From NCBI GenBank assembly GCA_038882715.1, contig JAVZNR010000010.1, positions 1 through 60,255 of the forward strand: a stretch of DNA of 60,255 nucleotides, read 5' to 3'. The stretch is from Candidatus Bathyarchaeia archaeon (GTDB lineage Archaea; Thermoproteota; Bathyarchaeia; Bathyarchaeales; DTEX01). The notes beneath the pieces are model-generated. The model had not been told where the DNA came from and ran no database searches. It was given only the letters and a program-made list of their open reading frames with translations. Positions 53,794 to 59,665 of this stretch are shown here, piece by piece (position 1 is the first letter of the stretch; the number at the start of each line of letters is the position of its first letter). Both the position numbers and the translations under genes were made by a program.

Positions 53794-54243
53794 TTAGATC
53801 TTTATCCGAACCTCTTCTTTTATGCTCCTCAAGACAAGCGCGGTCTCCGTGCTAATTACACCGTCAATCATCCCTATATCGTCGATTATCTTCGCGAGTT
53901 TGTTTTGATCTTCGGTTCTAATCTTGGCTAAAGCATAGTAGGAACCTGTTACATCGTAAACTTCGTAAACGTCATTCATTCTGCTTAACGCTTCAAGAAC
54001 ATTATGTAGCTTCTTTGGATCCGCGTTTATCAGCACAAACGCAGTTATGTTTTTTCCAACCTTCTCTGGGGAGACTATGGCGGTAAACCCCTTTATAACG
54101 TTCTTTTTAAGGAGCTTTTTCACCCTAGTGAATATTGTCGCTTCGCTAACATTCAGCTTCTCAGCTATTTTCCTGAAAGATACCCTGGCGTCCTCCTGCA
54201 GCATCCTAATTATTTCCCTATCAACATCATCTATTAGACTCAT
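53794..54243 (-). CDS. Lrp/AsnC-family transcriptional regulator
   Basis: This protein of about 149 residues has an N-terminal HTH (DREIIRMLQEDARVSFRKIAE; NVSEATIFTRVKKL) and a C-terminal RAM/ligand domain. It is divergent from lysW; in Sulfolobus an Lrp-like regulator (LysM) controls the lysW cluster, so it may sense lysine or arginine. ATG 54243 has GAAGGG seven bases upstream; the frame continues to 54279 but that start is unlikely. Confidence 0.92.
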   Translation of the reverse strand: MSLIDDVDREIIRMLQEDARVSFRKIAEKLNVSEATIFTRVKKLLKKNVIKGFTAIVSPEKVGKNITAFVLINADPKKLHNVLEALSRMNDVYEVYDVTGSYYALAKIRTEDQNKLAKIIDDIGMIDGVISTETALVLRSIKEEVRIKI

Positions 54244-54280
54244 TATATATCCCTTCAAAAATAAAGATTCCAAACTCAAA

Positions 54281-54321: not shown

Positions 54322-54352
54322 ATTAAAGATTCTTTAATGTTTCCGAAACATT
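54322..54352. promoter_or_regulatory. Two overlapping 17-bp palindromes, candidate Lrp operators
   Basis: ATTAAAGATTCTTTAAT (54322-54338) and AATGTTTCCGAAACATT (54336-54352) are perfect palindromes with centres 14 bases apart. The second abuts the lysW TATA box. They lie between the divergent Lrp-type and lysW genes, so Lrp-family dimers binding side by side could control lysW, the regulator, or both. Confidence 0.65.
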
Positions 54353-54358
54353 TATAAA
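54351..54358 (+). promoter_or_regulatory. TATA box of the lysW operon
   Basis: TTTATAAA lies about 26-33 bases before the GTG of lysW, giving a nearly leaderless transcript. Confidence 0.6.
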
Positions 54359-54383
54359 GAAATATGCTTTCTCCTATTAAAGC

Positions 54384-54578
54384 GTGAAAAAGGAGGCGGT
54401 AACCTTCAAGACAAAATGTCCTGAATGTGATGCGGAGATAGAAGTCCCGGAAGACGTGATATCTGGTGAAATAGTTAGTTGTCCAGACTGCGGTCTTGAC
54501 TTAGAGATAACACTTGATGAGAAAGGCGCTATTAACGTTAAGCCAGCTGAGATTGAAGGTGAGGACTGGGGCGAATAG
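54384..54578 (+). CDS. lysW: Amino-group carrier protein LysW
   Basis: This 64-residue acidic protein has a zinc ribbon (CPECDAE near residues 12-18; CPDCGLD near 33-39) and ends in EDWGE, the C-terminal Glu to which alpha-aminoadipate (or glutamate) is attached during lysine (or arginine) synthesis. GTG start. It heads the lysW-X-Y-Z-J-K operon. Confidence 0.95.
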   Translation: MKKEAVTFKTKCPECDAEIEVPEDVISGEIVSCPDCGLDLEITLDEKGAINVKPAEIEGEDWGE

Positions 54579-54584
54579 AATCAG

Positions 54585-55448
54585 ATGGTCAGAATAAGCC
54601 TAGTGTACGATAGGGTTAGATGGGAGGAAAAGGCATTAATAGAGGCGTCTGAGAGGCTTGGATTAAATCTGAATCCAATAGACTCGAAAGAAATCTACCT
54701 TAACGCGACTGAAAACCCCGACAAGCTTGAGGGAACATTTGGGGATGTGGTGCTCCAGCGCTGCATAAGCTACTTTAGGGGCCTACATATAACAGCAGTC
54801 CTAGAAGGTTCAGGCCTTCGAGTCATAAACCCATTCAACGTCTCACTGATCTGCGGAAACAAGCTCTTCACGATAATCGCCCTATCAAAGCTAGGTATCC
54901 ATGTTCCTAGAACACTGGTAGCCTTCACAAATGAGGGGGCTGTAAAAGCCCTAGAGGAGTTAGGCTACCCAGCTGTCTTGAAACCGGTTGTGGGAAGCTG
55001 GGGTCGCTTAGTGGCCCTTGTTAAGGATAAGGAATCTGCTCAGGCGCTTATAGAGGCACGCGAAGAAATGCAGAACTCCCTTATGCAGATCTATTATCTC
55101 CAAGAGTATATTAAGAGGCCGCCGCGCGACATACGCGTACTGACTGTTGGGGATGAGGTTATCGCGGCAGCATACCGCTACCCGGCTGAAGGCGATTGGA
55201 GAACCAATGTTGCCCGCGGAGGGCGAATGGAACCATGCCGCCTCACAGATGATCTTGCCGAGATCGCCTTAAAGGCTTCTAGGGCTGTTGGCGGCGGAGT
55301 TTTAGCGGTCGACTGCATGGAGTCGCCTAACGGCATAGTTGTACACGAGGTTAACAATACGCCGGAGTTTAAGGGACTCTACTCCGCAACTAGAGCCGAT
55401 ATACCTGAGAAAATTATTAGATATGCTGTTAAGGTGATGAAGAAATGA
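54585..55448 (+). CDS. lysX: LysW-alpha-aminoadipate ligase LysX
   Basis: This 287-residue ATP-grasp (RimK-like) enzyme joins alpha-aminoadipate (or glutamate) to the C-terminus of LysW. Segments LICGNKLFTIIALSKLGIHVPRTL near residue 88, YPAVLKPVVGSWGRLVALVKD near residue 128 and VHEVNNTPEFKG near residue 257 fit LysX/ArgX. It begins six bases after lysW. Specificity for lysine, arginine or both is not visible by eye. Confidence 0.93.
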   Translation: MVRISLVYDRVRWEEKALIEASERLGLNLNPIDSKEIYLNATENPDKLEGTFGDVVLQRCISYFRGLHITAVLEGSGLRVINPFNVSLICGNKLFTIIALSKLGIHVPRTLVAFTNEGAVKALEELGYPAVLKPVVGSWGRLVALVKDKESAQALIEAREEMQNSLMQIYYLQEYIKRPPRDIRVLTVGDEVIAAAYRYPAEGDWRTNVARGGRMEPCRLTDDLAEIALKASRAVGGGVLAVDCMESPNGIVVHEVNNTPEFKGLYSATRADIPEKIIRYAVKVMKK

Positions 55449-56497
55449 AGGTTGGTGTCTTCGGTGCCTCAGGGTATGTTGGCGGCGAGCTTCTACGCCT
55501 GCTCCTAGCCCATCCGAAGGTAGAGGTTTCAGCTGCAACATCAAACACTTACGCTAACGAGTATGTTCATAGGGTTCACCCAAACCTTAAGGGTCAAACG
55601 ACACTAAAGTTCATTAAGTCTGATCCACTTAAGGTTGCCGATCTATGCGACATCCTGTTTGTTTCAACGCCGCATGGTGTCTCATCATCCTTTGTGCCGC
55701 AACTAATTGAAGCCGGCTTAAAAGTGATAGATACAAGCGCGGATTTCAGGCTTAAAAACCCGGATGATTACGTGAAATGGTATGGATGGAGCCATAAAAA
55801 CCCAGACCTCCTCAGTAAAGCTGTTTACGGCTTACCGGAGCTCCACAGGGAAGAGATTAAGAAGGCTCAGCTGGTCGCTGTTCCGGGATGCATGGCTGCA
55901 GCCAGCATCTTGGCTCTCGCACCCATAGTTAAATCGGGTAAAATTGAAGTTGACAGGATTGTGATAGACTTTAAAGTTGGCTCCTCAGGCGCTGGCGCTA
56001 AACCATCATTGTCAACGCATCACTCTGAGCATTTCGGCGTTATTAGACCGTATAAGCCTGTCGGCCATAGGCATACGGCTGAAATCGAGCAGGAGCTCAG
56101 TCTCCTATGTGGAGAAAGAATTAAGGTCTCAATGTCAGCCCACGCCGTCAATATTGTTAGGGGGATACTTTCAACATGCCATACTTTCCTAAAAGAGCCG
56201 GTGACGCCGATAGAGGTTTGGCGCATTTACAGGGATTTTTACTCTAATGAACCCTTTATCAGGTTTATACGTGATGTTAAGGGGATCTACAGGTATCCTG
56301 ACCCGAAGATAATCGTGGGTTCAAACTTCTGTGATATAGGTTTCGAGATAGATGAGCACACGGGCAGATTGGTGATTTTATCAGCCATAGATAATTTGAT
56401 GAAGGGGGCTGCTGGAACAGCTGTTCAAGACATGAATATAATGTGCGGCTGGGATGAGAGGGAGGGCTTACGCTACTATGCATTACACCCAATTTAA
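55445..56497 (+). CDS. lysY: LysW-aminoadipate/glutamate semialdehyde dehydrogenase LysY (ArgC-like)
   Basis: This 350-residue NADPH-dependent reductase has GASGYVGGELLRLLLAHP near residues 8-25, the catalytic Cys in VPGCMAAASILAL near residue 138 and the ArgC motif GSSGAGAKPS near residue 178. It converts LysW-bound aminoadipyl (or glutamyl) phosphate to the semialdehyde. It overlaps lysX by four bases. Confidence 0.93.
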   Translation: MKVGVFGASGYVGGELLRLLLAHPKVEVSAATSNTYANEYVHRVHPNLKGQTTLKFIKSDPLKVADLCDILFVSTPHGVSSSFVPQLIEAGLKVIDTSADFRLKNPDDYVKWYGWSHKNPDLLSKAVYGLPELHREEIKKAQLVAVPGCMAAASILALAPIVKSGKIEVDRIVIDFKVGSSGAGAKPSLSTHHSEHFGVIRPYKPVGHRHTAEIEQELSLLCGERIKVSMSAHAVNIVRGILSTCHTFLKEPVTPIEVWRIYRDFYSNEPFIRFIRDVKGIYRYPDPKIIVGSNFCDIGFEIDEHTGRLVILSAIDNLMKGAAGTAVQDMNIMCGWDEREGLRYYALHPI

Positions 56498-56530
56498 AGT
56501 TTACCCTATAATTTTGTGAGCGTGTCCACG

Positions 56531-57337
56531 ATGATAGTCCTGAAAATCGGCGGAGACATATTTAGAAGGGGGCTAAGCGATAGCCTCGCCAACGATATAG
56601 GTGAAATCTTAAAGAGGGACAGGCTGGTTATCGTTCATGGTGGTGGAGACGAGGTTACAGAGATAGCTGAGAAGCTTGGCAAGAAGCAGATTTTCGTGAC
56701 CTCGCCTGAGGGCGTCAGGAGCAGGTACACGGACGAAGAGACCGTGGAAATATACACGATGGTTATGGCTGGCAGGGTGAATAAGGCGATTGTCAAATGG
56801 CTTATAGGGAAAAATATGCCGGCTGTTGGGATTTCAGGCGTCGACGGCGCATTAATGATCGCGAGCAGGAAGAAGAAGCTTCTGGTGGTTGATGAGCGTG
56901 GGAGAAAGCGCATTATAGATGGAGGCTTCACTGGAAAAATATCGAAGGTTAACTCAAGTCTCCTTGAGGTTCTCGTAGACCACGGTTTTCTGCCAGTCGT
57001 CTCACCTATAGCCCTTGGCGAAGAGAACGAGTACCTGAATGTTGACAGCGATAGGGCGGCTGGGCAGATAGCTAGCGCGTTAAAGGCTGAAAAAATAGTC
57101 TTTCTGACGGATGTTCCGGGCGTAAGATTAGGCGAAGAATATGTTAAGCGGATTAAGCTAAGCGAGGCCAAGGAGGTTCTGCCTAAGATAGGCCCCGGCA
57201 TGGATAAGAAGCTAATTGCTTCGATAGAGGCTCTGGAAGCCGGCGTTAAAGAGGCTATTATCGCATGCGGGTTCACGGATAGCCCGGTGATAAGCGCTCT
57301 TAACGGTTTGAATGGTACGGTGATAAGCGCTGAATGA
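56531..57337 (+). CDS. lysZ: LysW-aminoadipate/glutamate kinase LysZ (ArgB-like)
   Basis: This amino-acid-kinase-family protein of about 268 residues starts MIVLKIGGDIF and has VIVHGGGDEVTEIAE near residue 34, NVDSDRAAGQIASALKA near residue 173 and GPGMDKKLIASIEAL near residue 223. It phosphorylates the LysW-bound side chain. The frame opens at GTG 56516, but the ATG at 56531 gives the conserved start. Confidence 0.92.
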   Translation: MIVLKIGGDIFRRGLSDSLANDIGEILKRDRLVIVHGGGDEVTEIAEKLGKKQIFVTSPEGVRSRYTDEETVEIYTMVMAGRVNKAIVKWLIGKNMPAVGISGVDGALMIASRKKKLLVVDERGRKRIIDGGFTGKISKVNSSLLEVLVDHGFLPVVSPIALGEENEYLNVDSDRAAGQIASALKAEKIVFLTDVPGVRLGEEYVKRIKLSEAKEVLPKIGPGMDKKLIASIEALEAGVKEAIIACGFTDSPVISALNGLNGTVISAE

Positions 57338-57347
57338 AGAGGAAATG

Positions 57348-58556
57348 ATGGGCGTCGAAAACTCTTTTCTCGCAAATGTTTACCAGAAGTATCCTATTTG
57401 TGTCGTTAGAGGCGAAGGCGCCATCCTCTATGATGTTAAGGGCAGACCATATGTAGATTGCATGGGCGGCTACGGGGTAAGCCTAGTTGGTCACTGCCAC
57501 CCTAAGGTTGTTAAAGCCATAAAGGAGCAATGCGAGAAGCTTATAGCGTGTCACGGCTCACTATACAATGATAAAAGAGCTGAGCTACTGGAGAAACTAG
57601 TGAAGATAGCGCCAAAAGGGTTAAACAAGGTTTTTCTCTCTAACAGCGGCGCTGAGGCTGTTGAATGCGCCATAAAGGCCGCGGTAAAATACGCTGGTAA
57701 ACATGAGATTATAAGTATGGTTAGGGGTTTTCACGGCAAAACCTTGGGCGCGCTGTCGGCAACATGGAACCCGAAGTACCGTGAACCCTTCAAACATATT
57801 TTAAGCCAGAGCTTCAGGTTTGTGCCCTTCGGAAGGCTCGATAAGGTTGAGGAGGCTATTACGAAGGATACCGCGGCAATAATTGTCGAGCCTATTCAAG
57901 GAGAGGGTGGAATTCACGTCGCACCGCAAGGCTATCTTGAGGGATTGAGGAAGATATGCGATGAAAACGGTGTAGTGCTGATATTCGACGAAGTTCAAAC
58001 GGGTTTTGGAAGGACGGGCCGAATGTGGGCCTCGGAGCACTGGGGTGTTACGCCGGACGTGATGTGTGTTGCAAAGGCCATGGGTGGCGGAATACCGATA
58101 GGTGCAACAATAGCTAGAGAGGATATTATGGGTTCGCTGAAGGTTGGCGAGCACACAAGTACGTTTGGCGGAAACCCCCTTGCATGTGCAGCTGCCTGCG
58201 CGACGATAGACGCCATAATTGAAGAGGGGTTGGTTGAAAGGGCGCGAGTTCTTGGAAACAGGTTTAAGCATATTCTTCAGGGTCTTGTAGATGAGTTTAG
58301 TATTTTAAGGGAGGTTCGCGGCTTAGGTCTGATGCTGGGGCTTGAGACCAGAATAGACATATACAACATATTGATGGGGGCTTTAGAGAGAGGCGTAATA
58401 CTGCTCTATTCAGGCAGGAACATTATACGTTTTCTTCCTCCGCTCACGATAAGTTTAGAGCACCTTGAAAAGGTAGCTGACGTGTTGAGAACGGTTCTCT
58501 CAGAGGAAGAGAAGAAGTTGCCAGCAGGTATTGGCCACCATGGTGCCGGGGAATGA
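57348..58556 (+). CDS. lysJ: LysW-lysine/ornithine aminotransferase LysJ
   Basis: This class III PLP aminotransferase of about 402 residues has SNSGAEAVECAIKAA near residue 97, the catalytic-Asp segment VLIFDEVQTGFGRTG and the PLP lysine in CVAKAMGGGIPIGA near residue 246. It makes LysW-bound lysine (or ornithine) from the semialdehyde. The ATG at 57348 (GAGGAA five bases upstream) is preferred over 57345. Confidence 0.93.
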   Translation: MGVENSFLANVYQKYPICVVRGEGAILYDVKGRPYVDCMGGYGVSLVGHCHPKVVKAIKEQCEKLIACHGSLYNDKRAELLEKLVKIAPKGLNKVFLSNSGAEAVECAIKAAVKYAGKHEIISMVRGFHGKTLGALSATWNPKYREPFKHILSQSFRFVPFGRLDKVEEAITKDTAAIIVEPIQGEGGIHVAPQGYLEGLRKICDENGVVLIFDEVQTGFGRTGRMWASEHWGVTPDVMCVAKAMGGGIPIGATIAREDIMGSLKVGEHTSTFGGNPLACAAACATIDAIIEEGLVERARVLGNRFKHILQGLVDEFSILREVRGLGLMLGLETRIDIYNILMGALERGVILLYSGRNIIRFLPPLTISLEHLEKVADVLRTVLSEEEKKLPAGIGHHGAGE

Positions 58557-59665
58557 ATCGAGGGGAATGGCGCCCAATAGATTTGTTGAGAAGGATGCTG
58601 GAGATTTACAGCCCAAGCGGCAGAGAGGGCGAGATCTCATCTTTTCTGGCGGACGTTATGGCGGAGCTGGGCTTTGACAAGGTTTGGAGGGACAAGGTTA
58701 GCAACGTTTATGGGGAGATAGGGTTCGGTGGACCGACTATTCTTTTATGTGGACATATGGATACCGTCCCCGGCAAAATAGACGTTAAACTTGAGGGCGA
58801 TAGGCTTTATGGGAGGGGGGCCGTAGATGCAAAGTCTTCTCTGGCAGCCATGATCCTGGCTGCTTCAAGCCTAAAATCAGAGGGTTTAAAAGGACGAGTT
58901 ATAGTTGCCGGGGTTGTTGATGAGGAGGGGCGGGGGAAAGGCATTAAGCATATGATTCGCGGAAACCTTAATGTGGATTACGCGATATTTGGTGAACCGA
59001 GTGGCATAAGAAACATAACGTTCGCGTATAAGGGTCATATCAAGTTAAAGCTTGCTTTTAGAACAGCTGCCGGGCATGTTGGAGCCCAGCATATTATGCC
59101 TAACGCTATCGAGAAGTGTTTTGAGTTTTGGAGTAGGCTTAAAGATTTATGTGACCGCGAATATAGGTCGCCATACGGCGTCTTCTACTCACTAACGCCG
59201 GCGATAACGAGCATATATGGTAAGGGAACAACCCGAAGCATACCTGACACATGTTTTTTAGAACTCGATTTACGTCTGCCACCCGCAGTTAGCTGCGAAA
59301 AAGCGGTGAAGATTATTGAGGATTTAATTGATAGGTTTAGGTATGAAAACTATGGGCTAAACCTAGATCTTAAGGCTATAGATATGGTTAAACCATATGT
59401 GGCTGACAAAAGTTCCCTCGTAATAAAGGCTCTTAAGGAGGCTATCCTTGAAGAGACTGGCGAAGAGGCTAGATTGATTCGGAAGACTGGGACAGGCGAC
59501 ATGAACATATTTGGATCACACTTTAAGGCGCCAGCTGCAACATACGGCCCCGGAGAAGCCGTTTTAAGCCATACGCTGAACGAGCATATAGATATCAAAG
59601 AATATTTAATGAGCATAAAAATCTATAAAAGAGCCGTTGAGAAGATTTTAAGCCACGGCTCATAA
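58553..59665 (+). CDS. lysK: LysW-lysine/ornithine hydrolase LysK
   Basis: This 370-residue M20-family zinc peptidase has LLCGHMDTVPG near residue 64, the metal ligand GRGAVDAKSS near residue 87 and GVVDEEGRGKG near residue 121. It releases lysine (or ornithine) from LysW as the last step. It overlaps lysJ by four bases and ends the operon; a rhomboid gene follows after 18 bases. Confidence 0.92.
   Translation: MNRGEWRPIDLLRRMLEIYSPSGREGEISSFLADVMAELGFDKVWRDKVSNVYGEIGFGGPTILLCGHMDTVPGKIDVKLEGDRLYGRGAVDAKSSLAAMILAASSLKSEGLKGRVIVAGVVDEEGRGKGIKHMIRGNLNVDYAIFGEPSGIRNITFAYKGHIKLKLAFRTAAGHVGAQHIMPNAIEKCFEFWSRLKDLCDREYRSPYGVFYSLTPAITSIYGKGTTRSIPDTCFLELDLRLPPAVSCEKAVKIIEDLIDRFRYENYGLNLDLKAIDMVKPYVADKSSLVIKALKEAILEETGEEARLIRKTGTGDMNIFGSHFKAPAATYGPGEAVLSHTLNEHIDIKEYLMSIKIYKRAVEKILSHGS

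Follow-up and report, generated by a model that had tools for sequence, protein, structure and literature searches.

The divergent lrp/lysW locus

The window, that is the whole stretch of 60,255 nucleotides that was analysed, is one complete contig (C10) of the genome of a hot-spring Bathyarchaeota, the nearest named relatives of which are Candidatus Bathyarchaeota MAGs. A gene for an Lrp/AsnC-family regulator (minus strand) and one for a carrier protein of the LysW family (plus strand), both as described in the initial annotation, are read away from a common intergenic region of 140 bp with 76% AT. The following features were assigned:

53794 to 54243, minus strand: Lrp/AsnC-family regulator P0001 (149 amino acids), with Pfam AsnC_trans_reg and HTH domains, outside the LysM clade
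54260 to 54276, no strand: P3, AATAAAGATTCCAAACT, weak P1-like site between the lrp TATA box and start codon, 62 bp from P1
54281 to 54288, minus strand: TTTATATA, predicted lrp TATA box, conserved in same-genus loci
54322 to 54338, no strand: P1, ATTAAAGATTCTTTAAT, predicted operator for the neighbouring regulator P0001; perfect palindrome with place and dyad kept in relatives and an identical 17-mer in genome B24-2
54336 to 54352, no strand: P2, AATGTTTCCGAAACATT, perfect palindrome, interpreted as chance symmetry from the P1 end, a T-rich spacer and BRE/TATA; left arm unconserved and without covariation
54343 to 54348, plus strand: CCGAAA, predicted lysW BRE, almost without variation in 22 loci and lying 2 bp upstream of the TATA box
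54351 to 54358, plus strand: TTTATAAA, predicted lysW TATA box, conserved in 22 loci
54384 to 54578, plus strand: LysW/ArgW carrier protein with C-terminal EDWGE, 81.7 bits to NF041070 against a cut-off of 75
54585 to 59665, plus strand: remaining operon, with LysX-type ligase, ArgC/LysY, LysZ, LysJ and LysK, from NCBIfam matches

P0001, which starts with an ATG at 54243, belongs to the Lrp/AsnC transcription regulators; PF13404 and PF01037 both score above their cut-offs, corresponding to an AsnC-type HTH with the Lrp/AsnC ligand-binding domain behind it. Its best match among solved structures is FL11 of Pyrococcus horikoshii (PH1519, E = 7e-29), and its own genome contains nine matches to it. 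To the right of the gap the gene order is lysW-lysX-argC/lysY-lysZ-lysJ-lysK. From the usual archaeal spacing the lysW transcript would be expected to start at about 54379–54382, which with the GTG start codon at 54384 would make lysW nearly leaderless.

Both palindromes are perfect, with 17 bp, 8-bp arms and a 1-bp centre each. Their centres (54330 for P1 and 54344 for P2) are 14 bp apart, they have the AAT at 54336–54338 in common, and the end of P2 falls inside the lysW TATA box. The perfect 17-bp symmetry, the three shared bases, the centre distance and the contact of P2 with the TATA box had been described correctly in the initial annotation. A single palindrome of such a size is nothing unusual, five with arms of at least 8 being present across the window as compared to 1.9 ± 1.3 in Markov copies. 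For the 140-bp gap the chance is about 0.0009 for at least two palindromes and about 0.03 for at least one, as judged after the fact.

Conservation of the two palindromes

The divergent lrp/lysW pair is found in 22 Bathyarchaeota loci including that of the window, and these were aligned by anchoring on the lysW BRE/TATA block. P1 is retained at its place in the 22 gaps, mostly as an imperfect dyad, with its centre 12 to 14 bp before CCGAAA across the anchored loci. With the window left out it yielded a mean of 5.05 of 8 pairs, the highest among the centres tested (others 2.77 ± 0.56), and its pairing exceeded that of column shuffles (about 0.01), these statistics being somewhat flattered by uncorrected kinship and because the register of each locus had been fitted to a sequence profile, slightly in favour of P1. 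Compensating changes in both arms are seen in one of the nearest relatives, L003, where the site reads ATTGAGGAATCCTCAAT, and the dyad is degenerate in L005, L007, L009 and L018–L021.

Another finding was the recurrence of P1 in B24-2 (L061/L023), where the orthologous lrp gene, encoding a 59% identical Lrp, faces argG in place of lysW. The lrp/argG gap of this genome contains ATTAAAGATTCTTTAAT letter for letter, and the operon behind it reads argG-argH-lysW-lysX-argC-lysZ-lysJ-lysK (named from the sequences, argG and lysW by family search). As the lrp gene faces argG there and P1 is intact, P1 follows the lrp gene and the pathway and not lysW as such. Its conservation in relatives together with the identical 17-mer in B24-2 argues that P1 is very probably an operator of the adjacent Lrp, activation and repression being taken together, and an Lrp operator between the two genes had indeed been proposed in the initial annotation.

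P1 may instead be the operator of another protein, for example of another Lrp paralogue. The nine matches to P0001 in the genome provide candidates, and shared occupancy of targets by LysM and Ss-LrpB is described for Sulfolobus (PMC4046817). Such an assignment is nevertheless unlikely, as P1 remains beside this lrp gene even where the divergent neighbour is argG, and as in the relatives examined no arginine or lysine gene recurs beside P1-like sites apart from the lrp gap. Of the near matches to P1 in the own genome, those examined in the search for a regulon lay mostly in coding sequence, and no convincing P1 was found at argG, argF or the dapA operon (profile scores of −0.5 for argG and 4.4 for argF). 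TTAAATGATTCATTAAG, close to the beginning of the LysM-family gene in this genome, reached a profile score of 11.3. In the Methanomethylicota relatives L063–L065 the lrp gene occurs without an adjacent lysW. Two side observations were made: a P1-like match scoring 16.4 at 59594–59610 of the window lies inside the end of lysK and, being coding, is probably due to chance, and an exact TTAAAGATTCTTTAA is located upstream of a phosphodiesterase-like gene in two genomes of one genus (L152 and L153, genomes G013 and G015), possibly as a second target or by chance.

P2 behaves differently. Its right arm is the constant GAAANATT, part of CCGAAANATTTATAA, the BRE and TATA block of lysW. The left arm drifts among relatives, and the paired cells of P2 do not exceed those of shuffles (94 versus 96). 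Seven of the eight pairs are kept in the nearest relatives L002 and L003, where the changed pair is uncompensated, and three to six in most others. The left half of P2 consists of the P1 end plus the T-rich spacer, its outer three bases belonging to P1, and the inner pairs follow from the self-symmetry of TCCGA; for completion of the left arm from the column frequencies of the relatives P is about 0.003. P2 is thus most likely a by-product of ordinary promoter parts and not a separate binding site, a lineage-specific role being possible in view of the seven pairs kept in the two nearest relatives.

The initial annotation had regarded P1 and P2 as twin operators, bound by two regulators or by one of broad specificity. 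The perfect symmetry of P2 in the window, its near-complete pairing in L002 and L003, and the low chance values for two palindromes in the gap and for the left-arm completion speak for this reading. It is nonetheless highly improbable, as only P1 is conserved as a dyad, the half of P2 that is conserved is the BRE/TATA block, most other relatives keep three to six pairs, the paired cells do not exceed shuffles, and the change in L002 and L003 is without compensation. Of the two motifs that the initial annotation had suggested looking for upstream of lysW in related genomes, the first is kept as a dyad and the dyad of the second is lost. A tandem array of Lrp sites was also rejected, as neighbouring Lrp dimer sites are reported to lie two or three helical turns apart (PMC2995911), and P1 and P2 overlap with centres at 14 bp, a spacing ill-suited to two Lrp dimers.

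CCGAAA followed by TATA was considered as a frequent promoter motif and discarded, since only two exact copies of CCGAAANNTTTATAA are present in the genome; the reading as BRE for this reason rests on conservation and position. The other exact copy (C5:81855–81869, L035) is located upstream of an S-adenosylmethionine decarboxylase-like gene of polyamine synthesis.

Pathway context and relation to LysM

The lysW cluster stands in an arginine context. The own genome carries lysA in a gene run reading dapA-dapB-ask-asd-lysA, and it has argG. Homocitrate synthase scored above the cut-off in none of 35 genomes, weaker homologues being present. LysW and argG co-occurred in 24 of the 35 and were both absent in eight (counts uncorrected for relatedness). 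The signature pair of the ligase, a substrate signature by which ArgX and LysX differ (PMC10433800), is Gly-Leu here as compared to Gly-Phe in Sulfolobus ArgX (StArgX) and Asn-Ser in Thermus LysX (TtLysX). The combination of another lysine route with argG, which characterises an ArgW operon, is thus found, and in B24-2 argG-argH is even fused to the LysW operon. The cluster most likely encodes a LysW-dependent arginine (ornithine) pathway, with an added role in lysine synthesis possible. With arginine (ornithine) synthesis being the most likely role of the operon, the effector of P0001 would most likely be arginine rather than lysine. Both amino acids, which had been named in the initial annotation, are sensible candidates, but its lysine framing is probably wrong, given the DAP lysine operon with a LysM-family regulator of its own.

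The argG promoter of the own genome carries a different conserved palindrome, TCGACCATTTTTGGTCA (C12:10208–10224). Most genomes of the family and some outside it carry this palindrome before argG (relatives L163–L187), but B24-2 does not, where argG-argH lies behind P1, and in many relatives GACCAAAAAG is located beside the TATA-like box of argG. A further regulator of argG is suggested by this palindrome.

Elsewhere, regulators of the LysM family are known from the LysW pathway of lysine synthesis. P0001 was rejected as a LysM orthologue, as it yielded 103.2 bits to NF040947 (LysM) at a curated cut-off of 180 and fell outside the LysM clade in the tree. A second Lrp of the own genome, divergent from the dapA run, yielded 131.9 bits. 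In the tree, for which the LysM rows had been picked by NF040947 score and in which the own LysM-family row is a long branch, the LysM-family rows separate at 100/98, with the Lrp of the window outside and the second own-genome Lrp on the LysM-family side. Around the latter (C8:82000–96000; L226 4065–10005), where it is divergent from dapA-dapB-ask-asd-lysA, an ornithine carbamoyltransferase-like gene lies close by. Two other families of the order have lysW divergent from an Lrp of the LysM-family side, and in L217 and L218 (G032 and G034) an unusually long LysX-like ATP-grasp gene of about 390 amino acids is found across lysW from the LysM-family Lrp. The distinct Bathyarchaeota clade of P0001 may consist of arginine regulators dedicated to the LysW-type operon for this amino acid and different from the DAP-facing LysM-family protein, with P1 having stayed through the change of the operon head between lysW and argG; the case for this is evenly balanced.

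Predicted mode of control

For the archaeal Lrp activators Ptr2, LysM and Ss-LrpB the dimer is reported to bind a few bp before the BRE, and for the Ptr2/LysM type the site is a dimer-sized inverted repeat of 13–17 bp (PMC2995911). P1, with its 17 bp located 4 bp before CCGAAA, fits this layout. A P0001 dimer on P1 would accordingly control transcription of the LysW operon from 4 bp upstream of the BRE, its activity being modulated by an amino acid that is most likely arginine. By analogy with the three activators the operon would be activated via contact with basal factors, activation being expected from the position of P1 next to the BRE. This is our first choice, and we give about even confidence to the full reading, in which P0001 acts on P1 as an arginine-tuned activator and P2 is not a site.

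Repression by the same Lrp from the same operator is a serious rival because of the place of P1 in B24-2. Hand-counted, P1 lies there between the TATA-like box and the ATG of argG, about 11 bp before the ATG and at or just past the expected argG start, whereas in the lysW loci it is found upstream of the BRE. The Lrp, probably in its arginine-bound form, would then interfere with the pre-initiation complex at the LysW operon, besides blocking argG in B24-2, and the usual effector of an archaeal Lrp protein acts as a co-repressor (PMC2995911). In the lysW loci, however, P1 leaves BRE and TATA free and occupies the place reported for activators, so that repression is held only tentatively here and activation is preferred.

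Among the closest known systems is LysM with lysWXJK of Saccharolobus (Sulfolobus) solfataricus (Brinkman 2002), where, as described in PMC2995911 and PMC4046817, an Lrp-family gene likewise adjoins lysW and a proposed amino-acid-tuned activator has its site just upstream of the BRE. Besides its separate place in the tree the window pair differs in being divergent, lysM preceding lysW in the same direction in Sulfolobales-type loci, and in its likelier effector arginine, LysM being described as answering to lysine. Going by the account in PMC2995911, Ptr2 of Methanocaldococcus jannaschii also has its dimer site a few bp upstream of the BRE, but its targets are ferredoxin and rubredoxin/rubrerythrin genes and not amino acid synthesis. 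FL11 of P. horikoshii is described there as responding to Lys, Arg and Gln with lysJKYZ among its targets; it binds a 13-bp palindrome and represses many genes, whereas P1 is 17 bp long and the target found here is a local one only. A LysW-type arginine carrier pathway beside a DAP lysine pathway occurs as ArgW pathway in Natrinema gari J7-2, a haloarchaeon, for which PMC10433800 mentions no Lrp regulator. The proposed pairing of P1 and P0001 is a modest variation on known biology. P1 represents a specific, testable predicted operator for a clade of Lrp proteins that is uncharacterised and belongs to an uncultured group of archaea, the eye-catching P2 most likely arising from promoter sequence as a by-product. 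Where arginine is what the LysW pathway serves, the data suggest that control of arginine and lysine is perhaps split between two Lrp proteins.

The initial annotation had also considered autoregulation of the Lrp gene, which is plausible in view of P3, the weak P1-like site over the lrp start. Its distance of 62 bp from P1 corresponds to about 6 turns, the match being weak and strong in L006 only (profile score of 4.5 in the window and 13.0 in L006). The P3 offset gave the second-best profile match in six of 11 same-genus loci, with only L006 above the 99% level of shuffles. A position over the lrp start would fit autorepression, and a higher oligomer formed via this second site may repress lrp. 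In L013–L017 and similar relatives P1 is found between two back-to-back CCGAAA blocks, so that one dimer could serve both genes.
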